Shown in pieces: positions 2,264 through 20,169 of a DNA stretch of 34,535 nucleotides. Position 1 is the stretch's first letter. Each line of letters begins with the position of its first letter. Source of the DNA: Acidobacteriota bacterium (GTDB lineage: Bacteria; Acidobacteriota; Terriglobia; Bryobacterales; Bryobacteraceae); assembly GCA_016871015.1 (NCBI GenBank), contig VFZX01000035.1, forward strand, positions 1 through 34,535, read 5' to 3'. The notes under the pieces are model-generated. The model was not told where the DNA came from. It searched no databases and worked only from the letters and a program-made list of their open reading frames with translations. The position numbers were made by a program, and so were the translations under genes.

Positions 2264-5200
2264 ATGAGGCATCTTCTGTTGTTCGCGGCGGCTGCGGCAG
2301 CAGCCCTGGCACAAAACGCGGAACTCAGCGGACGGATCACGGACAGCTCGGGAGCGCTGATTCCCGGAGCGCGTGTCCGCCTCACACAGGAAAGGACGGG
2401 GTTGGAGCGCGGCGCCACGGCCAACCCGGACGGCTACTACAGCTTCCTTGCGCTTGGACCCGGGTCTTATCGGCTCGCTGTTGAGCATCCCGGATTCCGG
2501 CCAGTCGCGCGAACTGGCATCACACTTGAGGTCCGCCAAACCGCCCGTGTCGACGTCACGCTCGAAGTGGGATCCACCAGCGACGCCGTCACGGTCTCGG
2601 GCGAACTCCCCCGTGTTCAGACGCAGGATGCAACCCTCGGAACCGTGGTGGAGAGGCAGCGGATCGAGGAGCTTCCGCTGAATGGCCGGCACGTCTTCAA
2701 CCTCGTCAAGATCGTCGCGGGCGTGCAGCCGCGCTTCAACGACACCGACGGATTCGCCGAGATCCGCAATCAGAACTTCTCGCAGATCCGCTTCAACGGC
2801 GGCCCCTGGGGCGGCAATCAGTTCTTCCTCGACGGCGCGATGAACACGCTGCCGGTGGCCAACGAGATTGCCGTGGTCCCGATGGTAGACGCCATCGAAG
2901 AGTTCAAGGTTGAGACCAACTCCTTGAAAGCCGAGTACGGGCAGACCTCGGGCGGAGTGGTAACCGCCGCGACCAAGTCCGGAACGAACGCCTTCCATGG
3001 GTCGCTCTACGAGTTCCTGCGCAATGACTCGCTGAACGCGCGCAACGCCTTCGCGGTGCAGCGCGACCGTTTCACGGGCCGCATCAAGCCCATCCTGCGC
3101 TACAACCAGTTCGGTGGCACCGCCGGCGGACCGGTCCGTATCCCGCGTCTTTACGACGGGCGCAACCGCACATTCTTTTTCGCCGGTTACGAGCAGTGGC
3201 GTCACTGCGCATCACAGTTCAACCGGGGGACGGTGCCCGTCACCGCGCAGCGCAACGGCGACTTTTCAGATACGCGCGACGGGCGTGGCGCTGCGATCCC
3301 GCTGTTTGACCCGGCTACCACGCGCGCGAATCCCGCGGGGAGCGGATTCATTCGCGACCGTCTGCCCAACAGCATCGTGCCGCGGTCACGCATCGATCCG
3401 CTGGCGATCCGGGTGCTCGAGTTCATGCCGCGGCCCAACGCGATTCCCGACGACGCATTCACGAACTCGAACAACTTCCTGTCGCTGGTGAGCTCTCCCA
3501 CGGACCAGGGTGTGACCAACCTCCGCTTTGACCACGTGCTTTCGAGCAAGGACAACCTGACGTTCCGATACACCGGCACGCGGAACACGTTCAACGACCG
3601 GGGTTTCGGGCTCGGCCCCGCCGACCCGCTGGCGCGCATCGACCAGCGCGACAATCACAACTGGCTCGCCGGATACACACGAATCGCGAGTCCTTCGGTG
3701 TTGAACGAATTCCGGGGCGGCGCGACGCGGCAGTTCCTGGATTTCCGGCATCCGAGCGTTGGCGAAGACTGGCCGCGCAAGCTTGGATATCCGGCCATCA
3801 TCCCGCCAGACCAGTTCCCCATCGTTGCCATCACCGGAATGCTTAGCCTTTCCCGCGCCGGATTCGCGGGAGGATTCCGCGCGCAACACACGGTCCAGTT
3901 TGCCGACACCGTGTCCATCACGAGGGGCAAGCACCAATTGAAGGCAGGCGTCGACTTCCGGATCACCCGGCAGAACTGGCTCAATAAGGGTGATCCGTCC
4001 GGCCGCTTCAGCTTCGGTACCGATCTCACCGGAAATCCGCAAGCGCCGCAAGGAACCGGCTTCGGCATGGCCACCTACCTGCTCGGCGAGGTTTCCGGAG
4101 GCCAGTTGCGGATCCTCCCGCACTCCTCATTCCACTCTTCAAACGTCGCCGGATTCGTGCAGGAGGACCTCAAGCTGACTCCCCGGCTGACGCTGAACCT
4201 CGGTGTCCGCTACGACTTTACGACCGCGCCTGTCGAGCGGTATAACCGGTTCTCCTCTTTCGATCCCTTCCTGGTCAATCCACAGACGTCCCTTGCCGGC
4301 ATGATGCGGTATGCGGGCGTTGACACCCCGCGGAACTTCGTCAACCGTGACTTCAACAATATTGGTCCGCGCTTTGGATTCGCGTGGGATGTGTCCGGCA
4401 ACGGCCGGACAGCTGTGCGCGGGGGCTACGGTATCGTCTATCTGACGACCGATGCCACGGACTCGAGTGGCGCCAATCCGAGCGCTCTCGGTTTCTCCGC
4501 CGACACGCCTTTTGTCGCGCCCTCGCTCGGACCCTTCAAGGCGTTCCAGTTCTCCCAAGGTCCGCCGGCGCTGGTCATTCCGCGGGGCGCCGCTGGCGGA
4601 CCCTCAGCCTTCCGCGGCCTCAATGTGCAGTATCAGGACCGGAACGCGCCAGCGCCCTACCTGCAGCAGTGGAACTTCACCATTCAGCGCCAACTGCCGG
4701 CCGGGTTCACGGGCTCGGCGAGCTATGCCGGCAACCGGGGCGTGAAGCTGTTCGGCGCCGACTACGAAATCAATCAGCTTGACCCCGCGAACTTCACCCT
4801 CGGACTCGCCCTCCAGGATCAGGTGAACAATCCCTTCTTCGGCCAGATCCTGACCGGCGCCCTGTCAGGACGCACGGTCCAGCGCTCGCAACTGTTGCGG
4901 CCGCTGCCCGACTATTTGAACGTCCCGCTGTGGCGGAACCGCGGAGCTTCCTCTGTGTACCACTCGCTGCAGTTGACCGTGGAGCGCCGGTACTCGAAGG
5001 GACTCAGCCTTCTGTTTTCCTATACCAACGGGAAGTTGATCAACGACGCTACGTCCACCGCAACCGACACCGGGGGCGGCGGCGATTTCCGGATCGGGCG
5101 ATTCAACCGGTTCCTCGACCGCTCGCTTGATGAAGGCGACATATCGCAACGTGTGGTTGCCAGCGCGGTTTGGGAGATCCCCGCCGGAAAGCAGCGAATG

Positions 5201-5680
5201 GCTGTGACCCGCGCGTTGCTGTCGGGATGGCAGCTCAACACCGTCACGACGGCGCAAACCGGAGTTCCGCTGCGCGTTCGGGGCGCGTCGAACTTTACCG
5301 GGATTGCCTGGCCCGATGTGACGCGCGATCCGACGCTTGATTCCGCGGACCGGTCCGTTATCCGCTGGTTCGACACCGACGCCTTCCGCAATCCGCGCAA
5401 CTTCACGATCGGCAACGTAGCGCGGACTCTACCCCGCACACGCGCCCCTGGACTGTTCGACATGGCGCTCTCGTTGTTCAAAGTGTTCCGCGTGGCTGAG
5501 AACATGCGGCTCGAATTCCGCGCGGAAGCCTTCAACGCACTGAACCACGTTAACTACGCGGTCCCCAACACCACGTTCACACCGAACGCGCAGGGCGTGA
5601 ACAACAACGCCAACTTTGGCCGGAGCCTGTCGGCGCTGAACGCCCGTGCGTTGCAGTTCGGCTTGCGCCTCGTATTTTGA
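2264..5680 (+). CDS. Oar-like TonB-dependent outer-membrane receptor with N-terminal carboxypeptidase-regulatory domain
   Basis: A 1138-residue outer-membrane protein. Residues 1-16 (MRHLLLFAAAAAAALA) are a Sec signal peptide. Residues ~19-95 form a CarboxypepD_reg-like beta-sandwich (SGRITDSSGALIPGARV, then PDGYYSFLALGPGSYRL). A plug-like region follows (ELPLNGRHVFNLV, FFLDGAMN, EFKVETNSLKAEYGQTSGG), and the rest is an Oar-type 22-strand-like barrel rich in aromatic/Asn turns. The chain ends in FGLRLVF, with the terminal Phe expected for BAM-dependent insertion. Acidobacteria carry many paralogues of this type, thought to import oligosaccharides or peptides or to act in adhesion. Ligand unknown. 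Its neighbours, a sugar-acid dehydratase-like enzyme and a pectin-lyase-like propeller, suggest carbohydrate uptake (inference). Full length, no lesions seen. Confidence 0.92.
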   Translation: MRHLLLFAAAAAAALAQNAELSGRITDSSGALIPGARVRLTQERTGLERGATANPDGYYSFLALGPGSYRLAVEHPGFRPVARTGITLEVRQTARVDVTLEVGSTSDAVTVSGELPRVQTQDATLGTVVERQRIEELPLNGRHVFNLVKIVAGVQPRFNDTDGFAEIRNQNFSQIRFNGGPWGGNQFFLDGAMNTLPVANEIAVVPMVDAIEEFKVETNSLKAEYGQTSGGVVTAATKSGTNAFHGSLYEFLRNDSLNARNAFAVQRDRFTGRIKPILRYNQFGGTAGGPVRIPRLYDGRNRTFFFAGYEQWRHCASQFNRGTVPVTAQRNGDFSDTRDGRGAAIPLFDPATTRANPAGSGFIRDRLPNSIVPRSRIDPLAIRVLEFMPRPNAIPDDAFTNSNNFLSLVSSPTDQGVTNLRFDHVLSSKDNLTFRYTGTRNTFNDRGFGLGPADPLARIDQRDNHNWLAGYTRIASPSVLNEFRGGATRQFLDFRHPSVGEDWPRKLGYPAIIPPDQFPIVAITGMLSLSRAGFAGGFRAQHTVQFADTVSITRGKHQLKAGVDFRITRQNWLNKGDPSGRFSFGTDLTGNPQAPQGTGFGMATYLLGEVSGGQLRILPHSSFHSSNVAGFVQEDLKLTPRLTLNLGVRYDFTTAPVERYNRFSSFDPFLVNPQTSLAGMMRYAGVDTPRNFVNRDFNNIGPRFGFAWDVSGNGRTAVRGGYGIVYLTTDATDSSGANPSALGFSADTPFVAPSLGPFKAFQFSQGPPALVIPRGAAGGPSAFRGLNVQYQDRNAPAPYLQQWNFTIQRQLPAGFTGSASYAGNRGVKLFGADYEINQLDPANFTLGLALQDQVNNPFFGQILTGALSGRTVQRSQLLRPLPDYLNVPLWRNRGASSVYHSLQLTVERRYSKGLSLLFSYTNGKLINDATSTATDTGGGGDFRIGRFNRFLDRSLDEGDISQRVVASAVWEIPAGKQRMAVTRALLSGWQLNTVTTAQTGVPLRVRGASNFTGIAWPDVTRDPTLDSADRSVIRWFDTDAFRNPRNFTIGNVARTLPRTRAPGLFDMALSLFKVFRVAENMRLEFRAEAFNALNHVNYAVPNTTFTPNAQGVNNNANFGRSLSALNARALQFGLRLVF

Positions 5681-5984
5681 GACGTCCAGACGCAAAATCT
5701 CGGTCCAAACTCCGCTTCTGAACAGGTCACACCGGCGAACTACATCATGTCGTCAAGCAACGTCACTTCCCACGCCTCGGTGATCCACCGCGCCACCATT
5801 CAAGGTGCGGGCGTGGGCAATGGAAGAACGATCTACGAAGGGCACTACGAAGTGACGGAGACTTGCTGTCCGCAGCCCATCCGCGACGGCGCGGAACTCG
5901 GACGATTGCTGAGGAGCTGGGTCGACGCCGTCGTTTCCAGGTTGTAGCGCTTGGGACCCGTCAGAATTGGGCGCGGTCCCACGA
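5681..5984. other. Intergenic stretch of about 300 bp with one weak small frame
   Basis: Between the receptor stop and the promoter of the propeller gene I see no clear terminator, repeat or RNA motif. The only coding possibility is the 66-codon frame listed separately. Confidence 0.5.
5747..5947 (+). CDS. Possible small protein of 66 aa, doubtful
   Basis: ATG to TAG, 66 residues (begins MSSSNVTSHASVIHRA, ends LLRSWVDAVVSRL). By my count about three quarters of third codon positions are G or C, slightly below what the surrounding genes appear to show, which is compatible with coding but not proof. There is no Shine-Dalgarno sequence and no -10 hexamer at the leaderless distance. I recognise no family, signal peptide or membrane segment. 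It may be a remnant of a larger gene or a chance frame. Confidence 0.3.
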   Translation: MSSSNVTSHASVIHRATIQGAGVGNGRTIYEGHYEVTETCCPQPIRDGAELGRLLRSWVDAVVSRL

Positions 5985-5990
5985 TACAAT
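5985..5990 (+). promoter_or_regulatory. Leaderless-type -10 hexamer TACAAT for the propeller gene
   Basis: TACAAT is followed by 7 nt and then ATG 5998. Transcription would begin at or within a base or two of the start codon, and no Shine-Dalgarno sequence fits in the gap. No good -35 hexamer stands at 16-18 nt spacing. Confidence 0.6.
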
Positions 5991-5997
5991 GGCTGCC

Positions 5998-7218
5998 ATG
6001 TCCTCCCCAGCGCGGCCTGCCTTCGCCCTGTTCCTCGCACTCGCTGCCTTTGCGGAAAGTACCAGCGATCCGCTCGACGCCTGGACCCGGGCGAAGGTGC
6101 GGCCGCTCACGTCCACTCCCGGACGCCACTCCATCCACGCCTACATCAACACGACCCCGGAGAGTCCGGACGGCAAGTTCGTCCTGTTCTACACGTCCAC
6201 GGAGCGTGAAGGCTACAGTGGCGAGATCCGGATCGCCGACCGCGCCACGGGCAAGGAAGAGATCCTGGTGCGCAACGTAACCGTCGAGGACGCGCACCGC
6301 GCCGCCTGCCAGCAGTGGGTGTCGGGAGGCAAGCGGATTGTGTTCCACGACTATCGCGGCGGTGAGTGGATGGTGCTCACCGTCGACATCGCGACGAAAA
6401 AGGAACGCATTCTCGCCAAGGGCCGGATGGTCTCCTGGGGACAGCCGGCCCACGACCTCGTCCCAATCTACGGACCCCACTGGGCGCCCGGCGAACACCG
6501 TGACCTCGAACTCGTCAATGCGGCGACCGGCGAAATCCGTAAGGTGGTCCGCGCGGATGAGGTGCGGGCCCGGTATTCCGAAATGGTCGCCAAGGAGTTC
6601 GGCAGCCGGCCCATCAGCATCTTCTTCCCGGTGCTCAGCCCGGACCTCAAGCGCGTCTTCTTCAAGCTGGCGACTCCCAAAGGAACCGATTTCCGGTCCA
6701 AGGACGCAAGCCACCGCGAGCAGTTGATCGCCTACCACCTCGATGAGAAGCGGTTCCTGTTTGGACGCGCCCGCTGGGGCCATCCAGCCTGGCTTCCGGA
6801 CTCGCGCACGATCATGAACATGAACAATGTCCTGATCGACTCCGATGACGGCGCCGAGCGCACGATCCCGGGTCTGCCCGTGTTCCGCGGATCGCACCCA
6901 AGCGTCAGTCCCCTGGGCGATCTCTGGGTCACTGACTCCCTGATGGAGAGCTTCGGCGGCAAACCGGGCGAGTGGGGTGTCGCGCTGGCCGGTATGCGCG
7001 GCGGCCGGCACGAGTTTCTGCACCGGTTCGACAACGGACGCGGCGCGGCGTCGTGGCGCGTGTCGCACCCGCACCCGGCCTTCTCGAGTGACGGCCAGCG
7101 TGTCTACTTCAACGTCAACGACACGTCGTGGACTCAGTTGTACGTGGCTGAGCTTCCGCCCCCTGAGCGATCTCCTTCAGTCCGCGCGCCAACCGCTCCA
7201 AGCCGCGCGACAAGGTAG
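5998..7218 (+). CDS. Secreted beta-propeller protein, oligogalacturonate-lyase-like
   Basis: 406 residues. The N-terminus MSSPARPAFALFLALAAFAES is a short signal peptide. The body is a WD40/TolB-like propeller with repeated SPDGK/LSPDLKRVFF/SDGQRVYF strand motifs (for example ESPDGKFVLFYTST and HPAFSSDGQRVYFNVND) and several conserved His. Overall pattern and length recall oligogalacturonate lyase (PL22) and related proteins, so pectin-fragment degradation is possible, but I cannot assign the catalytic His/Arg set. The start at ATG 5998 is supported by the leaderless promoter. The recognisable domain ends at about LYVAEL; the last ~25 residues are low-complexity and run 104 bp into the 3' end of the convergent aminotransferase gene. 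Confidence 0.75.
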   Translation: MSSPARPAFALFLALAAFAESTSDPLDAWTRAKVRPLTSTPGRHSIHAYINTTPESPDGKFVLFYTSTEREGYSGEIRIADRATGKEEILVRNVTVEDAHRAACQQWVSGGKRIVFHDYRGGEWMVLTVDIATKKERILAKGRMVSWGQPAHDLVPIYGPHWAPGEHRDLELVNAATGEIRKVVRADEVRARYSEMVAKEFGSRPISIFFPVLSPDLKRVFFKLATPKGTDFRSKDASHREQLIAYHLDEKRFLFGRARWGHPAWLPDSRTIMNMNNVLIDSDDGAERTIPGLPVFRGSHPSVSPLGDLWVTDSLMESFGGKPGEWGVALAGMRGGRHEFLHRFDNGRGAASWRVSHPHPAFSSDGQRVYFNVNDTSWTQLYVAELPPPERSPSVRAPTAPSRATR

Positions 7219-8341
7219 CGCCGCCCGAGGCGAACGACACCCGGAGCGTCCCTTCACCCGCGGGTCCGTAGGCCGACCCGTGGACCGTCACGACGCCATG
7301 CTGACGCAGCAGGCGCTGCCGGATGTCATTCGACGCCAACCCCAAACCCCGGCAGTCCGCCATCGCGAAGAACCCTCCTTCGGGCGCTAAGACCTGGCAC
7401 CCCGGGATCCCGCTCAGCCCCTCCAACACCCGCGTCCTGCGCGCCGCGTACTCCGCGCGCATCTCCGCCACGCATTCCTGCGGACCCGCCAGCGCCGCAG
7501 CCGCCGCATCCTGAACGAACGTCGCCGGACCGCGGCTGGACTGCTGCAGCACCAGGAACATCGCGCGAATCGCATCAGCGGGCGCCGCGCAGTAGCCCAC
7601 GCGCCAGCCCGTCATCGAGTAGGTCTTCGACAGCGCGTTGACCAGGATCGTACGCCCGCGCATCGCCGGAACCGCCGCCGCCGGACTCACGTGGCGCGCC
7701 TCACCGTACACGATCGCCTCGTAGATCTCGTCGGCGATCACCCACAGGTCCCGCTCGGCGGCGAACTCCGCAATCGATTCGATCTCCGCCCGCGTGAACA
7801 CCGTCCCCGTGGGATTCCAAGGAGTGTTCAGGACCAACGCCCGCGACCTGGGCGTCCAGGCCGCCTCCAGCGCCTCGCGCGACAGCGTGAAGCGGCCATT
7901 TACGATAGCCGATGCTGCCGCTACGGGGACTCCGCCTGCCAGCCTGACCGGCGACAGGTAGGCGTCGTAGACCGGATCTGGAAGGATCACTTCATCGCCC
8001 GCATCGAGAATCGCGGCCAGCGCTGCGTAGATCCCGAAAGTCGCGCCGGTGGTCACCAGGATTTCGGTCCCCGGATCGTAGGAGAGTCCGTTCTCGCGCA
8101 CGAGCTTGGCGGCCACCGCCTCGCGGAGTTTCGGTTCTCCGCGATTGTCCGGGTACGCCGTGCGGCCAGCGCTCAGCGCCCGCCCGGCTGCTTCGACGAT
8201 GTGCGGAGGCGTCGGAAGATCCGGCTCGCCGCGCATGAGCGAAACGAGATCCGCTCCTCCGGCCTGCAATTCACGGACTTCGGCGAGGATCGAGTTGACC
8301 GCCGTGGGTTTGAGATTCTGAATCCGGCCGGAAAGGCGCAT
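7115..8341 (-). CDS. PLP-dependent class I/II aminotransferase (aspartate-aminotransferase-like)
   Basis: 408 residues, fold-type I aminotransferase of the AspC/Iγ kind. Visible are the TAYPDNRGEPKLREAVA segment, the TTGATFG phosphate-pocket loop (~97-103), NTPWNPTGT with NPTG at 176-179, DEIYE (204-208, Asp204 contacts the PLP nitrogen), the Schiff-base lysine K239 in NALSKTYSMTGWRVGY and the carboxylate-binding arginine R367 in LRVSF. It transfers an amino group between an amino acid and a 2-oxo acid in the cytosol; the exact pair is not predictable. It is last in a four-gene minus-strand operon, starting 5 nt after the preceding stop. The final ~18 residues extend beyond the usual fold and overlap the convergent propeller gene. 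Confidence 0.9.
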   Translation of the reverse strand: MRLSGRIQNLKPTAVNSILAEVRELQAGGADLVSLMRGEPDLPTPPHIVEAAGRALSAGRTAYPDNRGEPKLREAVAAKLVRENGLSYDPGTEILVTTGATFGIYAALAAILDAGDEVILPDPVYDAYLSPVRLAGGVPVAAASAIVNGRFTLSREALEAAWTPRSRALVLNTPWNPTGTVFTRAEIESIAEFAAERDLWVIADEIYEAIVYGEARHVSPAAAVPAMRGRTILVNALSKTYSMTGWRVGYCAAPADAIRAMFLVLQQSSRGPATFVQDAAAAALAGPQECVAEMRAEYAARRTRVLEGLSGIPGCQVLAPEGGFFAMADCRGLGLASNDIRQRLLRQHGVVTVHGSAYGPAGEGTLRVSFASGGATLSRGLERLARGLKEIAQGAEAQPRTTESTTCR

Positions 8342-8346
8342 CAGAT

Positions 8347-9462
8347 TCAGGATAAGCGGTATTTGTCGAGCGCCGCCTCGTCGAGCGAAACACCCAGGCC
8401 CGGCTTGGATCCGATCGCGTACTTGCCGTTCCGTACTGTGAACGGCTCCTTCATGCAGTCGTCCTCGAGGACATTGGTGACGCTGATGCAGTATTCAAGC
8501 GCGGGCCAGGCAGCCGCCTGGTGGGCCTGGAACACTTGTGAGATTCCGTTATCGATTGAATGTTCGATCCAAATCGGCTTCCGCGACTGCCGCGACAACG
8601 CTGCCAGCCGCTCAAGCGTCTTGCCCAGCCGCTGCCCGGCCACGATCCAGGCGTCGATCAACCCTTCGCGGGTCCAGGGTTCGAGGTCCATATTGTCGAT
8701 GTGCTCGGCGATGGGCAGCGCCATCTTGCCTTTGAGCGCGCGATAGCCGTCCAGGTTGGTGCGTGCGATCGGCGACTCGACCGCGAAGTAGTTCTTGAAC
8801 CGCGCCAGTTGCCGCGTCATCTCCACCGCTCTTTCCGGCGTTTCCCAGGTGCTGTTGGCGTCGGCCCAAACTTTGTAGTCCTTCGGGACTACGGCGCAGA
8901 TGGCCTCGGCCTGCTTGACGGCGTCGATCCAGGGGCGCGCTTTCACCTTGTGGATCCGGTAGCCGAGCGAGGCGCCGAGCTTTGCCTCCGAAGCCATCGT
9001 TTCTGATGGGAAACACTGGCTCCACCAGACGGGCGTGATCCGGGCGAGCGGCTTGTCAGCGAACAGACGCGCGACAGGTTTGTTGGACGCCTTGCCCAAC
9101 AGGTCGTACACGGCGATCAGAATGCCGCGCAGGGAATCATCCAGCAGATAATCCCACGGCGAAGCGCCCACCAGCTTGTCGAGGATCGCCTTCGCTTGCG
9201 CGGGTGGCATCTTGGTCTCCCCGATCCCGGTGACGCCTTCATCGGTATGAAGCTTCACAAAGTGGACCACGAAATCCGTCTGGTCCCGCTTCTGATTCTT
9301 CCAACTCGATAACCACGCCTCGCGGACCCGCTCGGAGAACGGAATCCGCACACTGCGAATCTCGTACCGGCTGATCCGCAATTTCGGAGCGGCGGCCGCC
9401 GCGCTCGCAAGCGGGGCCAATCCCGCCGAGACCAGGCGCGCCAACAAGTCACGCCGCAGCAT
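8347..9462 (-). CDS. Exported enolase-superfamily (MR/MLE) protein
   Basis: 371 residues. MLRRDLLARLVSAGLAPLASAAAA is a signal with a paired arginine, possibly Tat. The capping domain (~27-135) is followed by a barrel with the K-x-K pair HKVKA (K172, K174), the first metal ligand in WADANSTW (D201), AVESP (E229) and IAEHID (E253). A possible general acid/base region is GQRLGKT (K281). This is the muconate-lactonizing/enolase-like reaction scaffold. The IAEH and WIEHSIDN segments are unusual relative to characterised members, so the substrate is unknown. ATG 9462 follows the upstream stop by 3 nt with AGAGG just before it, indicating translational coupling in the xer-cca operon, an odd home for an exported enzyme. 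Confidence 0.8.
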   Translation of the reverse strand: MLRRDLLARLVSAGLAPLASAAAAAPKLRISRYEIRSVRIPFSERVREAWLSSWKNQKRDQTDFVVHFVKLHTDEGVTGIGETKMPPAQAKAILDKLVGASPWDYLLDDSLRGILIAVYDLLGKASNKPVARLFADKPLARITPVWWSQCFPSETMASEAKLGASLGYRIHKVKARPWIDAVKQAEAICAVVPKDYKVWADANSTWETPERAVEMTRQLARFKNYFAVESPIARTNLDGYRALKGKMALPIAEHIDNMDLEPWTREGLIDAWIVAGQRLGKTLERLAALSRQSRKPIWIEHSIDNGISQVFQAHQAAAWPALEYCISVTNVLEDDCMKEPFTVRNGKYAIGSKPGLGVSLDEAALDKYRLS

Positions 9463-9465
9463 GGA

Positions 9466-10776
9466 TCAGCCTCTGCGCGCCCACGCGTTCATTGGCGTTG
9501 GTGGCGCCGGCGGAGGTGGCGGCGGTGGAGCGGGCTTGCGGATCCGGCCATCAAGCGTGGCGTAGACGCGTTCGAGCTTCGCCTTGGCGAACTCCTTCGA
9601 GCCCGGATCCAGGCTGAGCGGAGCCAGGTCCTTGTCCGTCACTTCGTTCGCCGTTTCGAGATATTTCGTGAGGTAGTTCTTCACCCGGTCGTGAACGATG
9701 CGTTTTTCCGAGTGCGCCATGAGGAAAAGCACTTCCTCGCCCGGTGCGCTGCGAAGCGCCTTATAGACCAGCGAAGCGCGATTCAGCTTCGGGGATCCGA
9801 CCACCCGCTCGAGTTTCTTCGCCCGCTGGGCGAGCTCCTTCGGCGCGGAGGCTTCCTTGGCCGTGAGTTTCAACCGCTTGATCAGATCCTTGCGTTCGCG
9901 ATCGGTGAACTTCTCGAACAAGGTATGCAGGAACAGGCCCAAATTGCTCGCGTGGAAGTCCACTCCGAACGGAACCATCTGCCGGATCTTGAGGAGCTTT
10001 GCGAAACCCTGCGCATTCAGCTTCACTCCGCTGAGAGCCGGCGAAAACAGGCCGATGAGGCGCTCCCGCTCAAGCGTCTCGAGCAGGCCCGCCGGATTGG
10101 GCTCCTCCGCCATCTCGCGCAGTTCAGCGCGCAGGGCCTCGGCTGGAATCTTTGATTCCAGCCCCGCTTCGCGCACATTGTGATACTGGCTCTGCGTTTT
10201 TTCGTTGAGATCAAAACCCAGCCGCGCCCGCAGACGGAACATCCGCAGGATCCGCGATGGATCATCGTACAACGTGTAGTTGCTGTTGGTCCGCAGTTCC
10301 CGCCGCTCGAGGTCGCCGAGCCCGTTCTCGGGATCGAGCAGCAGCCCGCGCGACGCCGGGTTCAGCGAGATCGCAATCGAATTGATCGTGAAATCGCGCC
10401 GCTTCAAATCCTCGTGGATGGTGGCCGGGCGGATGCGCGGACGCGCGCCGGGCTTGAGGTATTGCGCCTCGTGCGCGATGGAGATCTCGGCTTTGACGCC
10501 GTCGGCAAACACGAGCGAATAGGCCTTTCGTGGCGGATCCACCAGGTCTGTCCTAACCCCGTCCCGCTTCTCCAGCAGCCGGACGATCTTCTGCGTGGGT
10601 CCCTCGATGGTGAAATCGAGGTCCCGGATCGGGAATCCGCCCAACATGTCGCGCAACGCGCCGCCGGTGAGAAACGCCCGGACCCCGGATTCCCGCGCGG
10701 CCGCTTCCACCAGCGCCACCGCACGGTTCTGCCCAGGGCTCAAGTGATTCTCGAGCATGAACATGTAGTCGCTCAT
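9466..10776 (-). CDS. CCA-adding/poly(A) polymerase-family tRNA nucleotidyltransferase
   Basis: 436 residues, class II nucleotidyltransferase. The head domain has LTGGALRDMLGG (G38-G39, R42-D43) and IRDLDFTIEG with the metal-binding carboxylates D52 and D54, then RRDFTINSIA (D128) and the nucleotide-reading helix DDPSRILRMFRLRARLGF (D171-R181). It is likely to add or repair the 3' CCA of tRNAs, or only part of it (CC- or A-adding), which sequence alone does not settle. The C-terminus ends in a proline tract (PAPPPPPPPAPPTP) that is not part of the enzyme fold and would demand EF-P. It starts 3 nt after the xer stop and is translationally linked to the genes on both sides. Confidence 0.88.
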   Translation of the reverse strand: MSDYMFMLENHLSPGQNRAVALVEAAARESGVRAFLTGGALRDMLGGFPIRDLDFTIEGPTQKIVRLLEKRDGVRTDLVDPPRKAYSLVFADGVKAEISIAHEAQYLKPGARPRIRPATIHEDLKRRDFTINSIAISLNPASRGLLLDPENGLGDLERRELRTNSNYTLYDDPSRILRMFRLRARLGFDLNEKTQSQYHNVREAGLESKIPAEALRAELREMAEEPNPAGLLETLERERLIGLFSPALSGVKLNAQGFAKLLKIRQMVPFGVDFHASNLGLFLHTLFEKFTDRERKDLIKRLKLTAKEASAPKELAQRAKKLERVVGSPKLNRASLVYKALRSAPGEEVLFLMAHSEKRIVHDRVKNYLTKYLETANEVTDKDLAPLSLDPGSKEFAKAKLERVYATLDGRIRKPAPPPPPPPAPPTPMNAWARRG

Positions 10777-13203: not shown

Positions 13204-15288
13204 TCAGCGGTGCGCGATCACCAACAGCGACTTCGCCCGCTTCACCGTGCACTCGACAGCCATCTTGCGCGTCTCCGGATCCAGCGCGCCGAAGCTTTCG
13301 TCGAGGATCACCAGGTCGGCGCCTTGCAACAGGGCCCGCGCCAGGAACACCCGGCTCCGTTCTCCCTGCGACATCTGCCAGCCGCTCTCGCCCACCATCT
13401 GGTTCATTCCGCCGGGCATCCGGCCGAGCAACGGACCCAGGCCCAACTCCTCGCACACCGCCTGCGCTTCATCCAAGTCATTCTTGACGTGCGGCTCCGG
13501 CCGGCCCATCAACAGATTGAACTGCAGCGGACCGGTGATCATGTGGTTCTGATGGAATTGCGGAGCCAGCGCCACGCGCCGCCTCCAGCCCCCCGCCCCC
13601 AACGTCTGGCGGTCGAGTCCGCCTGAGGTCAACAGCCCGGACTGCGGCGTCCGCAGGCCCGCCAGAACCGCGGCGAGCGTGGACTTGCCGCCGCCGGATG
13701 GACCCTCGAGCACCACACGGGCGCCGGGCTCCAGCCGCACCGAGCATTCCTGAAGAACCCGCCGCTCTGTTCCCGGATAGTAGTAGACCAGATCCTTGCC
13801 CTCCACCGACGATCCAGCGTTGGCGCGCGTGGCGTAGGACGGTGACCCTGTGGGCTCGGCCAGCTCCGCGGCGGCGGACAGCTCGCGGATCTGCTCGCTC
13901 GCAATCCAGGCGTCCATCAACTGCCACGACGCCGCGGCCAGTTTCCGGAAGGCGCCGTTGGCCAGCATCACCGCACCCAGTCCCGCCGCGAGAACTCCCT
14001 GCACCGGATCTCCGAGGAAAGCGCCGCTCAGCGAGCCGATCCCCGCCACGAGCCAGGCGCCCGGCAGTCCGGCGGTGAGCATCGCCTCGGCGCGGTCGCG
14101 TCCGCGGGACGCTTCGAGGAAGTGGCTGACTTCCTGGTCCTCGGCCGCGTGCCATCGTTCAGGCGGCTCCTGTGCGAGCCGCGTCCGGTGGCCCACCATG
14201 CGCTCGACGAGGCCGTTGGTCAAATCCATTCGGATCTGGGTCCATACCCGTGCCCGGTGCAGATAATTTCTTGCCAGCAATGCCCCGGCGGCTACCCACA
14301 CTAGCAGGATCACCATCGACACCGGAAGTCCGGCGGTGGCGAATACGGTGGCCGCGGCGGCCAGCTCCAGGGCTGCCACAAGTCCCGCGAACCCACCGGC
14401 GAGCGACAGATTCTCCACCGCCGCGGATTCGTAGGTCTTGGCCAGCAGTTGCCCGGCGCCGAGCGCGAGCACCCTTTCCGGATTCATGCGCAGCGCCCCG
14501 GCCAGCAGCCGCTGCTTCAGCAAGGCGCCGAGCGCAATCGAGAATCGCGCCTGGATCCAGTTGCCCAGCATCTGCAGCGGAACCAGCGTGATCAGCAGCA
14601 GCGCCCAAGCGATCAGCCAGCCCTGTTCCAGGCGCCCGGTCAAAACTGCATCGCCGATCACGCGCCAGGCAAGCAGGAATACGGCCAGCCGTGCCACGTG
14701 GGCGGCTCCGAGCTTGATCACGGTCCGGATCCACGGACCTTGCCGGAACAGCTTTCGCCACGGCGCCGTTACGGGCACCCGGAACGTGTGAGCGAACCTC
14801 CGCTCCTGGCTCAATTGCTCGTCGAGCAAAGCTCGCTCCGCCAGCTTCCGCTCCGCCGGTGCAAGCCCGGTCTGATCGAGCACCGCCGCGAGCGGCTGCA
14901 GCGCCTTCTCCTCCATCTCCTCGCACATGGCCCGCCGCACCTCGGCGGGCCGGGCGCGATACCGCTTCAGATCGGGACCAAGCAGCACCCCAGGTTTGAG
15001 TTGGATCAAGAAGTCGAGATCCGTGCCACGTCCCCGCGGCACGGCCACCAGCCGTGCGCTGCCGAACCATTTCTCCATGTCGCTGTACCGCACGAGGACT
15101 GCCTCGGCCTCAATTCCGAGCGAGGCGGCGGCCCCTTCGATCCAGGTAGTCCGGTTGGTCTGGTCCAAGCTCAGAGGAGGGGGAGGCACGCGGACGGGCG
15201 CCGGATCGAGACCGCCTTCGCGGCACAGAGCCGTGATGGCGTCGCCCAGTTGGGCTGCCTTCCAGACGGCGCGATCGAGACCGCTCAC
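13204..15288 (-). CDS. ABC exporter permease-ATPase, second ABC of an NHLM-like cassette, C-terminus cut after the H-loop
   Basis: 694 residues. The N-terminal ~140 residues contain VAVPRGRG and KPGVLLGPDLKRY and look like the degenerate, non-proteolytic front domain of second-ABC proteins of peptide exporters. A transmembrane domain (~150-440) and an ATPase domain follow: Walker A GPSGGGKST (K535), an atypical signature MSQGE (639-643, in place of LSGGQ), Walker B ILDESF (E664) and H-loop AHR (H693). The protein stops one residue after this His, so the last two core strands of a normal ABC domain are missing. GTG 15288 was chosen because it overlaps the upstream stop (GTGA) and is preceded by GGAGG; the ATG 60 nt upstream would lie deep inside the preceding gene. 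It probably pairs with the C39 ABC protein. Confidence 0.82.
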   Translation of the reverse strand: MSGLDRAVWKAAQLGDAITALCREGGLDPAPVRVPPPPLSLDQTNRTTWIEGAAASLGIEAEAVLVRYSDMEKWFGSARLVAVPRGRGTDLDFLIQLKPGVLLGPDLKRYRARPAEVRRAMCEEMEEKALQPLAAVLDQTGLAPAERKLAERALLDEQLSQERRFAHTFRVPVTAPWRKLFRQGPWIRTVIKLGAAHVARLAVFLLAWRVIGDAVLTGRLEQGWLIAWALLLITLVPLQMLGNWIQARFSIALGALLKQRLLAGALRMNPERVLALGAGQLLAKTYESAAVENLSLAGGFAGLVAALELAAAATVFATAGLPVSMVILLVWVAAGALLARNYLHRARVWTQIRMDLTNGLVERMVGHRTRLAQEPPERWHAAEDQEVSHFLEASRGRDRAEAMLTAGLPGAWLVAGIGSLSGAFLGDPVQGVLAAGLGAVMLANGAFRKLAAASWQLMDAWIASEQIRELSAAAELAEPTGSPSYATRANAGSSVEGKDLVYYYPGTERRVLQECSVRLEPGARVVLEGPSGGGKSTLAAVLAGLRTPQSGLLTSGGLDRQTLGAGGWRRRVALAPQFHQNHMITGPLQFNLLMGRPEPHVKNDLDEAQAVCEELGLGPLLGRMPGGMNQMVGESGWQMSQGERSRVFLARALLQGADLVILDESFGALDPETRKMAVECTVKRAKSLLVIAHR

Positions 15289-17885
15289 GCGCCCGCCTCC
15301 AAGCGGCCGGACGCCACCCGTAATCGCCGCCACGAACTGCCTTCCCAAAGACCTTCAGAGACCTCATGCTCGGCGGCCAGCAAAGCCGCATACCTTGAAC
15401 CGGGACGCGACCGAAGCTCCTCGGGCGAGCCGTCTTCCACCACCTGTCCACCTTCGATCACCAGGACGCGATCGAAGACCCCGGTTGACTTCGCGTCGTG
15501 CGTGATGCACAGCATGGTCGCCTGGCGCCAGATTGCGCGGACCCGCCGGGTCAGCGTCATCCGATTGTCGTGATCCAGCCCCCGGAACGCCTCGTCCAGG
15601 ATCGCCAGCCGGACACCCGAACGCAGCATCGCCCGGCCCAAACGGACGCGCTGGCCCTGGCCTCCGGAAAGCGCGGCGCCGCCTTCGCCGAGGTTGGTCT
15701 GCAGGCCATCCGGCAGCTTGCCGAGCACATCCAGCAGCTCCGACTGTTCGACCACCTCGCCGATCCGCGCGTGATCCTCCGGCGCCGACCCGTAGGTCAG
15801 GTTGTCGGCGCAGCTTGCGTTCCACAGGTGGACCTCCGGGTCCACCCAGGCGATCTGCCTTCGCAGCTCCGCCGCGGCTCCTCCTTTGAGCTCCTGTCCG
15901 TCCACGATCACGCGGCCCTCCGAGGGCCGGTGCCAGCCCAACAGCAGTCCCACGAAGCTTGACTTTCCCGCCCCCGACGGACCGACGATCGCCACGTGGG
16001 TGCCGGGCTGGATGTCCAGATCGAACCCCCTCAGGATCTCGTGCCCGCCCGCCCGCACGGCGACTCCTTCGAGCCGCACCGCCATCCCGGGCGCGCGCCC
16101 ATCCAGCCGGACCGGCTCCGGGACCGGCTCCTCGATTGCACCCAGTGGCTCAATCAGCCGGAGCGTCGTATTCCGGAACGCCGGATACTGCGCCGCGCCT
16201 TGGACCAGTGTCTGCGCCAGCGTTGGCAGTCCCAGGACCCAGTAAACCAGCAGCAATCCGGTGCTCGCCTCTCCTTGCCGCTGGAAGTGGTCGAGGACGA
16301 CCCATGCGCCGAGTCCATAACCCACGGTCATTTGCAGCCCGTCGAGGAGCACGGTGCTCCGCTGCAGACTCAGCGCCGCGCCCGCCCATTCTCCCAGCAG
16401 ATCCTGATGGGCGCGGCGGATCGAGTGCGCCGCCCCGTGCGAACGGATTGCGAACAGCCCGAGGAGCGAATCCAGGTAGAACCGGCCCAGTGCGCCGAAG
16501 TGAGTCCGAAGGCGGAGATCCTTCTCCATGAGGTGCTGGCGGGCAAGCCACGGACCGGCGAATGCCACCGTCAGATAGACACACAGGGGCAGAGCCGCGC
16601 CCGGATCGAGCCAGAGAATTCCGGCCGAGGTGAACAGCATCTCGAAAGTGCTGCGCAGCATTCGTCCGGCGAATTCCGGCAGGTGCCGGATGTTGTGCAG
16701 GCTGTGGCTGCGCTCGGCCATGTCGGACTTCGGGCGGCTTTGAAAGTACCGGTCGCCGAGCCGCGGAAGCTTTGACAGAAACCGGACCCGCATGCGGATT
16801 TCGAGTTGCCTGCCCATGCGCAGGATTCCGGTGACATACGGGATCTCCACCAGCAGCAGCACCATCAGCAAGATCAAAAGCGCGGCGAAAGCTCCGAGCC
16901 GTTGTCCGGAAAATCCCAGTTCGCGCGCCACGTCGAACAGGCCGCGGAACAAGACGCCTTCGAGCAGGGTCCCGGCGGCGGCCATAGCCATCGCGGACAC
17001 GAGAGCGGCCGGCGCCAGCAGCCCGTCCTCGCGCAGCATGGACCAAATCGCACGCCACGCGGGCGGGGGCTTTTCTTTGAGGGCGAGCGCCAATTCGGGC
17101 GAGAGATCGTGTCCCGGGCCCTCTTTCTTCTTGCCGGCGGCTTGAAGGTACACCGCGCCTTCGAGGGTCACGTTGCCATCAGCCGCCTCGCGAACCATCC
17201 GCATCGATTCGGGGATCCGATCCGGACTCCTGAGGAACGCATCAAGCGTGGAGGCAGCCGCGCGGCGGCTGATAGCTCCGGAATCGAGCAGCGTCCGCGT
17301 GACCCGGATCGCGGAATCGAGGTTGGCGAATCCGCGCCAACCGGGGTCAGCCGCGGCGTTCGCGATCAACTCCAGCGCCCGCTTGGATCCGATCCCGATG
17401 CCCGAGAGCCGCTCGGCCTGCATCTTGGTGTTCAGGTCGTTGCCCGCGAACTCGCGCCAGGCCTCCGCCGGGATCACCTGGGAATGACGGTAGACAGTGT
17501 CCAGGAACTGGCGCACCCGGCACCAGTACCTCCCCACGCCCGGATCCATCACCTGGAGCCAGCCTCCGGCCCGCCGCCAGATGATGACGAAGTGAGTCAT
17601 CCCATTGCTGGTGTGAATGACGATGAGGGCCGGGAACACCTGGGCGCTCGACAGCATCAGGTGGTCCAGCGGCAGCATCGTTTGCGAAGCCTCGAGACCA
17701 AGCTGATTCGCGACCACCTCCAGTGTGTCGATCGAGGTCCCGTCGACGTCGGTCTGGCAGGCCTCGCGAAGCCGCCCGTAGCTCGCCCGGACTCCAAAGC
17801 CCTCGAGCAGCGACTTCAGGGCCGCGGGGCCGCAGTCCATCGCCGAGGTCTGCACGACTTCGGGAACGAACCAGCGCCGGCTCAC
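15285..17885 (-). CDS. C39-peptidase ABC exporter, first ABC of an NHLM-like peptide export cassette
   Basis: 866 residues. Residues 1-120 are a complete C39 peptidase domain: Q12 and C18 in QTSAMDCGPAAL, H98 (MTHFVIIW) and D114 (VMDPG). These domains cut leader peptides after double glycine while the transporter exports the core. Residues ~125-280 form an extra, helix-rich segment not found in 700-residue relatives. The membrane domain (~285-580) follows, then the ATPase with Walker A GPSGAGKSS (K641), signature LSGGQ (739-743), Walker B LAILDEAF and a full H-loop plus C-terminal strands. Starts at GTG 17885, overlapping the HlyD stop (GTGA), and ends overlapping the next GTG start. Cargo unknown. 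Confidence 0.92.
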   Translation of the reverse strand: MSRRWFVPEVVQTSAMDCGPAALKSLLEGFGVRASYGRLREACQTDVDGTSIDTLEVVANQLGLEASQTMLPLDHLMLSSAQVFPALIVIHTSNGMTHFVIIWRRAGGWLQVMDPGVGRYWCRVRQFLDTVYRHSQVIPAEAWREFAGNDLNTKMQAERLSGIGIGSKRALELIANAAADPGWRGFANLDSAIRVTRTLLDSGAISRRAAASTLDAFLRSPDRIPESMRMVREAADGNVTLEGAVYLQAAGKKKEGPGHDLSPELALALKEKPPPAWRAIWSMLREDGLLAPAALVSAMAMAAAGTLLEGVLFRGLFDVARELGFSGQRLGAFAALLILLMVLLLVEIPYVTGILRMGRQLEIRMRVRFLSKLPRLGDRYFQSRPKSDMAERSHSLHNIRHLPEFAGRMLRSTFEMLFTSAGILWLDPGAALPLCVYLTVAFAGPWLARQHLMEKDLRLRTHFGALGRFYLDSLLGLFAIRSHGAAHSIRRAHQDLLGEWAGAALSLQRSTVLLDGLQMTVGYGLGAWVVLDHFQRQGEASTGLLLVYWVLGLPTLAQTLVQGAAQYPAFRNTTLRLIEPLGAIEEPVPEPVRLDGRAPGMAVRLEGVAVRAGGHEILRGFDLDIQPGTHVAIVGPSGAGKSSFVGLLLGWHRPSEGRVIVDGQELKGGAAAELRRQIAWVDPEVHLWNASCADNLTYGSAPEDHARIGEVVEQSELLDVLGKLPDGLQTNLGEGGAALSGGQGQRVRLGRAMLRSGVRLAILDEAFRGLDHDNRMTLTRRVRAIWRQATMLCITHDAKSTGVFDRVLVIEGGQVVEDGSPEELRSRPGSRYAALLAAEHEVSEGLWEGSSWRRLRVASGRLEAGA

Positions 17886-19054
17886 TTTCTCCCCTGTCTC
17901 GGTGCGCCCACCCAGTTTCCGGCCAGGCGGAGTGCCAGCTCGGCCGGGGAAACCCGGTCCACTACGATCTCGACGGACCCGGGAAGTCCGTGGTCAAGCT
18001 GGACTGCTGCCGGCTTTGGGTTCACAATCGCAAGGTCTACCTGGACCGTGCCCGCGCGCGCCTCCTTGGCGACGTTGATGACCTCGCCGTGCACGAAACC
18101 ATACTGTGCCCAGGGATACCCGTTGAGCCGCATTCGCGCCTTTTGCTCTTGCCCGATGCGTCCGAAGGCGGCTGCCGGCTCATATTGCGCGACGATGATC
18201 ACTTGTCCACCGGCCGGCAGGATTGTCGCCAATTCGGTGCCCGCGGGGACGAACGCGCCAGGCTGAAGAGTGGGCGCCGCTCCGATGATGCCCGCCACAG
18301 GCGCGCGAATCACGCGGCGGCCGATTTCATGACCCGCCCGCGGCAGGGTAGAAGTCACGTTTGCCACGTCGGCGCGATCCCGCTCGATCTGCGTTTGAAT
18401 TTCCTGCTCGCGGATCTTCCGCTCACTGTCCTTACGCCCCTTCTCCTCTTTCTTCTGCTCGATTAACCGGTGCAGCCGCTCGATCGTGGCTCTCTGCTCC
18501 GCCAGCGCCGTTTCGGCTCGCGGGAGCTCGGCGGCAGCAATCAGTCCTTCTTTTTTCAATGCCCGGATCCGCGCCAGTTCGGTCTCCAGGTGCGCTCTCT
18601 TCAGGTTCGCGCCCCGCAACTCTTCCTCCGTCACACGGATCTCCGCCTCGGTGGTCCTGTGGTCTGACTCCACGCCTCTGCGCACCGCGTCCAACTCCTC
18701 CTGCCGGGCGCGGATGTTCTGCTGCAAGCCGGCGATCCGTGTCTGCGCTTCGGACCGCTCCATTTGCTGGACCTCACTGGCCAGCACCGCCAGCTCGTCG
18801 CCCTGTTTCACTTCGCGCTGAATCCGGAGATTGGCGGATATCAGGCGCCCCGAAATCTCCGCCTCTACTTTGTAAGGCGCGTCGCTCGACTCCAGCCGCG
18901 CGGTCTCCGTCACTTCATACAGCGGCACCTTGGTCTGCGTGAACCACCAGATCCAGGCGCCGCTCAGCATAGCGGCGAGAAGCAGTTTGAGCCCTGCTCC
19001 CCGGAAGCTATCTGCTTCCAGCAGCGAACCGGTCCGTGCGAATCCCTGGGGCAA
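17882..19054 (-). CDS. HlyD-family membrane-fusion protein (periplasmic adaptor)
   Basis: 390 residues: cytosolic tail (1-20), one transmembrane helix (~21-40), a first lipoyl-like half (~62-93, VEAEISGRLISANLRIQREV), a long coiled coil (~95-240, rich in Glu/Arg/Gln heptads), the second lipoyl half (RRVIRAPVAGIIG, ~243-275) and beta-barrel/membrane-proximal domains. Such adaptors link an inner-membrane ABC exporter to an outer-membrane channel. TTG 19054 is the likely start, 3 nt after the alanine dehydrogenase stop; no better ATG or GTG is close. Its stop overlaps the C39-ABC start. No TolC-like gene is in the window, so the outer-membrane partner must lie elsewhere. Confidence 0.88.
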   Translation of the reverse strand: MPQGFARTGSLLEADSFRGAGLKLLLAAMLSGAWIWWFTQTKVPLYEVTETARLESSDAPYKVEAEISGRLISANLRIQREVKQGDELAVLASEVQQMERSEAQTRIAGLQQNIRARQEELDAVRRGVESDHRTTEAEIRVTEEELRGANLKRAHLETELARIRALKKEGLIAAAELPRAETALAEQRATIERLHRLIEQKKEEKGRKDSERKIREQEIQTQIERDRADVANVTSTLPRAGHEIGRRVIRAPVAGIIGAAPTLQPGAFVPAGTELATILPAGGQVIIVAQYEPAAAFGRIGQEQKARMRLNGYPWAQYGFVHGEVINVAKEARAGTVQVDLAIVNPKPAAVQLDHGLPGSVEIVVDRVSPAELALRLAGNWVGAPRQGRK

Positions 19055-19057
19055 GGG

Positions 19058-20169
19058 TCAAATCACTTCTCGCAGCTCTCGATACGTACGGTTCTGCGAT
19101 TCCGCCACCGCCGCGTACGTAATGTGCCCGTTGCACGTGTTGACACCCTGGCGGATCGCGTCGCTGCGCTCGCACGCGGCGCCCACGCCCTGGTTGGCGA
19201 GCTGCATCAGATAGGGGAACGTCGCGTTGGTGAGTCCGAGTGTCGAGGTGTTGGGGACCGCGGCGGGCATGTTCGACACACAGTAGTGGATCACCCGCTC
19301 CTCGACGTACACCGGATCGGTGTGGGTGGTCGCGCGCGAAGTCTCGAAGCACCCGCCCTGGTCGATTGCCACGTCGACGACCACGGATCCCGCGCGCATG
19401 TCGCGCAGCATCGAGCGCCGCACCAGCCTGGGCGCCGAGGCGCCTGGAATCAGCACTCCGCCCACCACCAGGTCTGCGAGCTTCACCGACTCGTGAATCG
19501 TCCAAACGTTCGACGCCAGCGTGACGATCGAATTGTTGAAGATGTCGTCCAGGTCGCGCAGCCGCTCGAGATTCTTGTCGATGATGGTCACGTGGGCGCC
19601 GAGGCCTACTCCCATCTTGGCCGCGTTGATCCCCACGACGCCGCCGCCGATAATGACAATGTTGGCGGGCGCACACCCGGGATTCCGCCGAGCAGGATCC
19701 CGCGGCCGCCGTTCGGCTTCTCCAAATACTGCGCGCCCACCTGGATCGCCATGCGTCCCGCGACTTCGCTCATCGGTGTGAGCAGCGGCAGCGAGCCATC
19801 CTTTTCGCGGATCGTCTCGTAGGCGACCGACGTCGTGCCGCCTTCCACGAGCTTTTCCGTCAGCTCCGGCAGCGGCGCCAGATGCAGGTAGGTGAACAGC
19901 ACCAGGTCCTTGCGCAGGAACTCATACTCGGAGGTCTGCGGCTCCTTCACCTTGACCACCATGTCGGCGGAGTTCCACACCTCAGCGGCGGAATCCACCA
20001 CTGTGGCGCCTGCGCGGGCGTAAATGTGATCGGGGATCGAACTCAGCACACCGGCGCCGGATTGCACGATGACCTCGTGCCCGGCCTCGGTCAGCGCGGC
20101 CACGCCGCTCGGAACGACACCGACGCGGGATTCGTGATCTTTGATTTCCTTCGGAACGCCAATAATCAC
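19058..20169 (-). pseudogene. ald: Alanine dehydrogenase with a single-base frameshift
   Basis: Two overlapping frames together make an alanine dehydrogenase (NAD-linked, L-alanine to pyruvate plus ammonia). The first (from GTG 20169) has R15, K75 (VVKVKEP) and H96 ([11 protein letters not shown]), then loses frame after GGIPGV. The second resumes with [20 protein letters not shown], the NAD-binding GxGxxG loop, and contains VDVAIDQGG and [12 protein letters not shown]. Restoring one G on the minus strand at about 19672-19674 gives V-A-P-A-N and puts the catalytic Asp at residue 270, exactly as in known Ald proteins, with a total of 370 residues. The gene is therefore intact except for one deleted base: a true mutation or a sequencing/assembly error. 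As written, translation would stop at 19606. It overlaps the upstream stop in GTGA. Confidence 0.9.

Follow-up and report, generated by a model that had tools for sequence, protein, structure and literature searches.

A two-subunit C39 peptidase exporter of an Acidobacteriota bacterium and its likely cargo of short peptides

What does a peptidase-containing exporter carry when no precursor gene lies beside it? This question is raised by a three-gene cassette in a window of 34,535 nucleotides, which is the entire contig C35 of the 8.66 Mb genome, in 720 contigs, of an Acidobacteriota soil bacterium. The cassette is flanked by 13 and 15 kb within the window. A previous sequence-only reading described it as an NHLM/NHLP-type peptide exporter without visible cargo.

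Gene order and domain build of the cassette

The cassette is encoded on the minus strand and includes a HlyD-family periplasmic adaptor (17882..19054, 390 aa, TTG start), the C39-peptidase ABC exporter subunit ABC1 (15285..17885, 866 aa, GTG start), and the second ABC exporter subunit ABC2 (13204..15288, 694 aa). The adaptor was recognized by PF13437 (HlyD_3, 48.1 bits, cut-off 22.2) and by neighbouring homologues in relatives, ABC1 by PF03412 and PF00005, both above cut-off, and ABC2 by PF00005 (72.1 bits). As the start of ABC2, GTG at 15288 is preferred over the listed TTG at 15348. The HlyD/ABC1 and ABC1/ABC2 junctions are both GTGA, in which stop and start overlap by 4 bases, and the single overlapping operon of the sequence-only reading is thus confirmed. 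The HlyD gene adjoins the C39 gene on the upstream side in 40 of 80 related loci; here and below, these loci are the best 80 of 327 matches. The adjoining adaptor and ABC exporter are a feature of type I secretion. No TolC-type outer membrane partner was found among the window ORFs scanned against families.

The C39 peptidase domain occupies residues 1-140 of ABC1 (17466..17885, minus strand; boundaries from the structure model), and PF03412 matches residues 10-128 with 72.7 bits (cut-off 22). The catalytic residues C18, H98, and D114, previously read as intact, are kept in all 42 aligned ABC1 relatives, as is the Walker-B Glu765. In the AlphaFold2 model of ABC1 (mean pLDDT 83.6), an extra domain is placed between the peptidase and the membrane domain (residues 141-260; 17106..17465, minus strand). 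It is composed of helices (150-219) followed by a beta pair (strands 231-252), with pLDDT mostly >80 in this block, and its length is 108-174 residues across the 42 aligned sequences. Residues 334-831 of ABC1 align with 216-717 of the solved PCAT1 chain (4ry2), which leaves ~118 additional residues ahead of the membrane domain.

ABC2 (model mean pLDDT 87.9) ends one residue past the H-loop His, and the terminus V-[IV]-A-H-x is seen in 16 of 16 aligned homologues. Structure comparison pairs its residues 180-694 with subunits of TmrAB, IrtAB, CydDC, and similar heterodimeric exporters. Compared as a profile, the N-terminal domain of ABC2 (residues 1-175; 14764..15288, minus strand) matches the C39 domain with 94.5% probability (E 7.6e-8 over 79 columns) and is probably a degenerate C39-like domain; in place of the C39 His and Asp, it has D and G. 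In both ABC1 and ABC2, the Foldseek/VIA matches lie outside the N-terminal parts.

The cassette belongs to a widespread type of peptidase exporter that has two subunits and is characterized by the extra post-peptidase domain and by an ABC2 ending at the H-loop. Like the PCATs (PCAT1, ComA, and LahT), it has an N-terminal C39 domain with Cys, His, and Asp and an ABC core. According to the accessible text of the PCAT source (PMC6959990), PCATs are typically homodimers, whereas the cassette has two different subunits and the extra domain.

Relationship to NHLM/NHLP exporters

The cassette looked like NHLM because the three-gene layout is common to both: the NHLM paper, in its accessible part, describes a cluster of genes for HlyD-like, peptidase-ABC, and ABC proteins (Haft et al. 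2010, PMC2887384), and in both systems the second ABC protein is without an active peptidase. The layout stands, but the assignment does not. With the NHLM models, all three proteins score far below cut-off: ABC1 189.4 bits against TIGR03796 (NHLM ABC1, cut-off 853.3), ABC2 95.3 bits against TIGR03797 (NHLM ABC2, cut-off 709.4), and the adaptor 26.8 bits against TIGR03794 (NHLM_micro_HlyD, cut-off 156.2). A reading of the cassette as a diverged NHLM/NHLP (or Nif11) exporter with its precursor located elsewhere is very improbable. In favour of such an origin are the identical layout and the NCBIfam results for the C39 subunit, whose top match is NHLM ABC1 (E 9e-56), but MsbA is matched equally well, the scores are 4 to 7 times below the curated cut-offs, and the sole match to the NHLP model (TIGR03793) in the genome is also below cut-off (37.1 of 50.9 bits). 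This sole precursor candidate was rejected, as it lies in what is apparently a genuine alpha gene of nitrile hydratase, followed by a beta-like gene.

Short leader peptides as candidate cargo

Neither leader-type nor NHN-type short ORFs were found in the window, and no RiPP maturase family matched any of 30 window ORFs in a Pfam scan or the ORF at 9466-10776, which was compared with NCBIfam only. The absence of a maturase and a leader peptide, as first read, therefore holds. A C39 peptidase exporter without a recognizable linked substrate is also known in Nostoc: HetC is suspected to export very short regulatory peptides (PatS/HetN), substrates unproven there, and the accessible text mentions no HlyD-type gene in the HetC cluster, unlike the cassette (PMC10986499).

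The neighbours of related exporters revealed candidate cargo. Short ORFs at sister loci share a leader of approximately M-K-x-K-[T/S]-x-[V/I/L]-K-A-G, designated here as the KAG leader, and the cores behind it are highly diverse (NHNQ, WGS, FPFVG, Cys-rich, and microviridin). NHN-type short ORFs lie directly upstream of HlyD in relatives. Among the best 80 of 327 matches, strict leader ORFs were found in 34 loci, and in 38 when longer ORFs were allowed, against 0-3 of 80 with shuffled sequences; 40 loci have no leader ORF by either pattern. The neighbour clusters listed for the same 80 loci contain no recurrent RiPP maturase; besides the cassette genes, they are mainly Ser/Thr kinases, ECF sigma factors, and regulators. 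A TPR gene is also seen near the cassette in six relatives.

At the loci of Sorangium (L153) and a planctomycete (L171), K-[T]-x-V-K-A-G stands immediately ahead of microviridin cores. These precursors match NF033738 with 61.4 and 51.6 bits, respectively (cut-off 26), and MvdC/MvdD-type ATP-grasp genes adjoin the planctomycete precursor. KAG stands there at a position where a leader cut is expected, in favour of the export route proposed below. C39 transporters occur in class II/III microviridin and other graspetide clusters, as far as the accessible texts describe them (PMC13039773, PMC8939145), and cassette-type exporters adjoin microviridin precursors with a KAG(G) motif at L153, L171, and a third locus, L159. 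Unlike graspetides, most KAG-leader peptides are without an ATP-grasp recognition motif and match no family; the non-microviridin leader peptides that were scanned fit nothing in Pfam or NCBIfam.

The KAG leader resembles PCAT leaders in being short, with a pair of small residues at its end and a hydrophobic residue at -4. It differs from the classical double-glycine leader, whose consensus is L(-12)xxxE(-8)L(-7)xxxxGG in the accessible text (PMC6959990), by [T/S] at -6, K at -3, and mostly AG at the end, without L-7, E-8, or L-12. Neither a nitrile-hydratase leader nor a Nif11 leader was seen here, and KAG leaders are ~10 residues long, in contrast to ~70-110 residues for NHLM/NHLP leaders as given in the accessible text (PMC2887384).

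In the genome of the window, seven short leader ORFs with ten NHNQ units were found on six other contigs. Model A1, built without any sequence from this genome, matches it nine times with E-values from 6e-9 to 1e-4, and the next best match is 0.4. The suggestion of cargo genes at a distance from the exporter is thereby supported, and so is the suggestion of something other than a classical bacteriocin, as both leader and cores are unlike those of classical double-glycine bacteriocins. One of the seven ORFs, encoding a 60-aa peptide, was scanned and matched neither NF033738 nor PF12559. The only gene family common to the flanks on the six contigs is an oxidoreductase-like pair, apart from other common ORFs. 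Structured RNA in the 5' flanks was considered, but the z-scores of six flanks (0.52 to -2.10) are not convincing, and no Rfam family was found in the six contig stretches. The TPR gene has eight matches in this genome; the top one adjoins a peptide gene (C331), another peptide contig (C424) has the fourth-ranked one, and this placement is suggestive.

Short ORFs of this kind could be chance peptide readings of repetitive DNA, whether mobile or intergenic. Three copies in the genome of the window have 5' flanks 92-100% identical, and several loci contain arrays of near-copies, as repeats would. This origin is nevertheless highly unlikely: the KAG leader is found again in different phyla, where its flanks and cores are unrelated, including microviridin precursors above curated cut-offs, the ORFs of the window's genome are preceded by good ribosome-binding sites, and in the tandem array of Microbulbifer all 28 of 28 leader DNA sequences are distinct. 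Leader sequences also show an excess of third-codon-position differences, which is in part a consequence of choosing the sequences by protein motif.

The pairing of exporter and peptides rests on relatives and on co-occurrence, since they are unlinked in the window's own genus. Precursors apart from the exporter, and the logic of co-occurrence, are likewise described for NHLM/NHLP in the accessible text (PMC2887384). In a class scan of 399 genomes, peptides (NHN peptides by model A2, E<=0.001, or leader by model A5, E<=0.02) were compared with ABC2 (E<=1e-60): 12 genomes have both, 2 the peptide only, 4 the exporter only, and 381 neither (p 5.6e-18). Without the 8 model-source genomes, the counts are 6/2/2/381 (p 1.6e-10), and with G228 and G322 removed as well, in which the leader is identical to a model row, 4/2/2/381 (p 2.4e-7). 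One of the peptide-only genomes (G415) has a C39 subunit on the peptide contig; in the other (G217), which has an NHN peptide, no C39 exporter of the cassette's kind was found. The four exporter-only genomes miss both peptide thresholds, and weaker leader-type ORFs are readable in them. The 10-residue motif is short and gives weak single-genome E-values; at E<=1, where chance matches are expected, leader-type matches are seen in 13 of 13 genomes, weakly in G002 (0.42). Among the exporter-negative genomes of the scan, model A5 finds a leader ORF in 1 of 383. Exporter genomes without a linked leader ORF were also searched (39 genomes, L133 left out): 9 have an unlinked one by model A5, against the 1 of 383 exporter-negative genomes, and 30 have none genome-wide.

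The exporter could instead carry something else, such as larger proteins or a second peptide type, with the NHNQ peptides served otherwise or not exported. The missing linkage in the window's genus and the half of the best 80 of 327 matches lacking leader peptides by both patterns would fit such cargo, but the co-occurrence across 399 genomes, the direct linkage at many sister loci, and the leader peptides encoded apart from the exporter in additional genomes make it unlikely. Of the other exporters in the window's genome, none of the five best has the size of a C39 exporter; these full-length proteins of 553-626 aa have their N-termini already within the membrane domain, so that a C39 domain would not fit.

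Proposed export route and its significance

It is likely, on this evidence, that the cassette is an exporter for short KAG-leader peptides, with C39 cutting after AG/GG and with cargo genes unlinked in the window's genome. The two-subunit exporter and the HlyD adaptor would recognize the very short leaders, with cleavage by the C39 domain of ABC1 behind AG (or GG) and release across the envelope of a C-terminal core that is often just 5-15 residues long. In this bacterium, the cargo would be the NHNQ-core ORFs on other contigs, apart from the exporter. We infer cleavage, the exact cut site, export, and the action outside the cell.

Our best guess is that the products are extracellular peptides serving as signals or weapons among neighbours. 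For the unmodified peptide types, signals are slightly favoured over weapons because the cores are conserved within lineages and no recurring immunity gene was noticed nearby. The shortest cores have 5-6 residues (SVNWG, NSSWGS, and GFPFVG), and polyprotein-type leader peptides include up to 16 repeats. Somewhat more tentatively than the cargo assignment, at slightly less than even chances, the single short export tag and the dedicated two-subunit C39 exporter may constitute a cross-phylum route for ultra-short peptides, whether unmodified, polyprotein, Cys-rich, or microviridin-type, used in signalling or competition by uncultured bacteria of soil, sediment, and groundwater. No publication describing a KAG leader with such an exporter was found in a literature search that left most subscription papers outside.

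An orphan exporter thus becomes an exporter-cargo pair that is testable by one in vitro cleavage assay. The leader offers a simple search key for peptides of 15-25 residues, which are below usual gene calling. If the proposed route is true, many poorly studied bacterial groups would secrete tiny peptides that are unnamed in current family libraries.

Organization and class of the exporter

The cassette lies on the minus strand of the window and consists of genes for an HlyD adaptor (19054-17882), a C39-peptidase ABC subunit (17885-15285) and a second ABC subunit, ABC2 (15288-13204), which are joined by two GTGA overlaps. An alanine dehydrogenase gene (ald, 19058-20169) ends four bases before HlyD, upstream. 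This ald is found in two overlapping frames, one holding the N-terminal Pfam domain and the other the C-terminal one, and the split may be an assembly error or a true frameshift; the homologue in G002 is a single intact frame. The order ald-HlyD-C39-ABC2 is shared by G001 and G002, both further genomes found from the genus.

The sequence-only reading regarded the cassette as an NHLM-like exporter, and this assignment was not borne out: the proteins score far below the NCBIfam cut-offs for NHLM ABC1 (189 bits, cut-off 853), ABC2 (95, cut-off 709) and HlyD (27, cut-off 156). None of the three proteins reached the cut-off of an NCBIfam model among the best 25 listed. The cassette encodes a peptidase exporter with two subunits. 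All 42 aligned relatives retain the C39 triad and the Walker-B Glu765, and also contain an extra domain of 108-174 residues between the peptidase and the membrane domain, predicted to fold as helices followed by strands. By profile comparison, the N-terminal part of ABC2 is similar to the C39 domain (94.5%, E 7.6e-8), with other residues at the C39 His and Asp positions. All 16 aligned ABC2 homologues end directly after the H-loop His.

Candidate cargo in relatives and in the window's genome

ABC2 relatives are present in 9 of 61 closely related genomes, counting the window's own, and in 16 of the 399 class genomes. Among 18 ABC2-bearing loci that were read, small tandem ORFs were seen immediately upstream of the cassette. 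They carry a leader of about M-K-x-K-[T/S]-x-[V/I/L]-K-A-G, and are the candidate cargo. G057 has ten-odd such genes, of the type MKKTTKPKLKVKTTVKGGGPNYGVSLNHNERML, and G197 encodes a polyprotein with 16 K-A-G repeats. Eighteen peptide units from relatives showed no family match in Pfam or NCBIfam.

A profile of these 18 units, containing no sequence of the window's genome, gave nine matches in that genome (8.66 Mb in 720 contigs, the window being contig C35) with E-values from 6e-9 to 1e-4, the next best being 0.4. On six contigs, none of them the window, seven short ORFs together encode ten NHNQ units: 60 aa with three units (C463), 41 aa with two (C443), 25 aa (C289), 22 aa (C331), 27 aa (C42), and two on C424, one of 22 aa and another with a Cys-rich core. 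The peptide genes on C463, C443 and C331 share a 71-74 base 5' flank (92-100% identity), in which an inverted repeat is seen just ahead of the ribosome-binding site; folding of the 5' flanks of the own-genome peptide genes was not significant overall. Two of the six contigs (C331 and C424) carry TPR genes of a single family, which also occurs close to the cassette in six relatives.

NHN peptides (model A2, E<=0.001) and the bare leader (model A5, E<=0.02) were each detected in nine of the 399 genomes, fourteen when combined. Peptides and ABC2 are both present in 12 genomes, peptides only in 2, the exporter only in 4 and neither in 381 (p 5.6e-18). After removal of the eight genomes supplying model sequences the counts are 6/2/2/381 (p 1.6e-10), and after removal of two further genomes with a leader identical to a model row, 4/2/2/381 (p 2.4e-7); because the genomes are related, the p-values do not describe independent events. 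In the peptide-only genome G415, a C39 subunit is 1.2 kb from the peptide. In G217, which has an NHN-type peptide (G217:C108:124413-124466), a C39 exporter of the cassette's kind was looked for and not found.

Leader and core diversity across named genomes

A C39 alignment scan of named genomes gave 327 matches, the best 80 of which were kept as loci. These 80 are from Acidobacteria, Gemmatimonadales, Planctomycetes, Chloroflexi, Proteobacteria, Desulfonema and Syntrophobacterales, myxobacteria, and Nitrospira. The C39 gene has HlyD as its immediate upstream neighbour in 40 of them and ABC2 as its immediate downstream neighbour in 44; an HlyD match is lacking from all 14 loci titled Chloroflexi, Chloroflexaceae or Anaerolineae/Anaerolineales/Anaerolinea. 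Leader ORFs of the strict pattern are present in 34 loci (0-3 in 10 shuffles), and in 38 when ORFs up to 600 aa are allowed (0-3 in 6 shuffles, 1 when reversed).

The cores are highly diverse, including NHNQ, xxWG, CGSGGCM, Cys-rich, and helical peptides ending in GCD-type motifs. Microbulbifer has several dozen small genes with P-E-L-x-[IV] cores; in Microbulbifer rhizosphaerae (L164, ~2974-8566), about thirty tiny tandem genes upstream of the exporter each encode the leader followed by such a core. In four Chloroflexi loci (L130, L152, L162, L168), the peptides that follow the leader are helical and end in a conserved motif of the type G-C-x-C-x-R; the one such peptide scanned had no family match. 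Microviridin cores (NF033738, over cut-off) immediately follow the tag in Sorangium (L153) and a planctomycete (L171), and MvdC/MvdD-like ATP-grasp genes, scoring slightly under cut-offs, flank L171 and L106. This serves to calibrate the tag as the end of a leader.

Among other neighbours, ECF sigma factors occur in 11 of the 80 loci (a representative matches TIGR02999 with 217 bits, cut-off 126), FHA-sigma54 regulators in 5, and Ser/Thr kinases in 18, the last a raw count for genes that are common in such genomes. Pairs of a TIGR02999-type sigma factor and a kinase adjoin the exporter in L100, L103, L125, L145 and others, the pair being in line with the exporter in three loci. A 628-aa protein (L172, 5203-7089), with no NCBIfam match, and its relatives in L113, L124, L135 and L156 are encoded beside Methylococcales and Burkholderiales exporters.

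Likely export steps and unlinked cargo

Judged from sequence, the C39 domain would likely bind the leader, perhaps aided by the extra domain or the degenerate ABC2 domain; the peptide would then be cut after AG or GG and the core exported. The consensus of PCAT1-type leaders, as given in PMC6959990, is L(-12)xxxE(-8)L(-7)xxxxGG. The cassette-type leader is without this L(-12), E(-8), L(-7) pattern, and instead has [T/S] at -6, V/I/L at -4 and K/R at -3.

Neither the strict nor the longer-ORF pattern revealed a leader ORF in 40 of the 80 named loci, and some exporters may therefore use other leaders. The leader model matched nine of the 39 genomes searched for these loci (E<=0.02) and 1 of the 383 exporter-negative genomes in the class scan (p 1.8e-9 for the nine, between sets that differ in taxonomy). 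In one of the nine, G426, the array is on the exporter locus itself and was missed by the pattern. WGD, GFPFVG, GPNHT and PVSRCAGI are core types new in this search. Unlinked cargo is recurrent.
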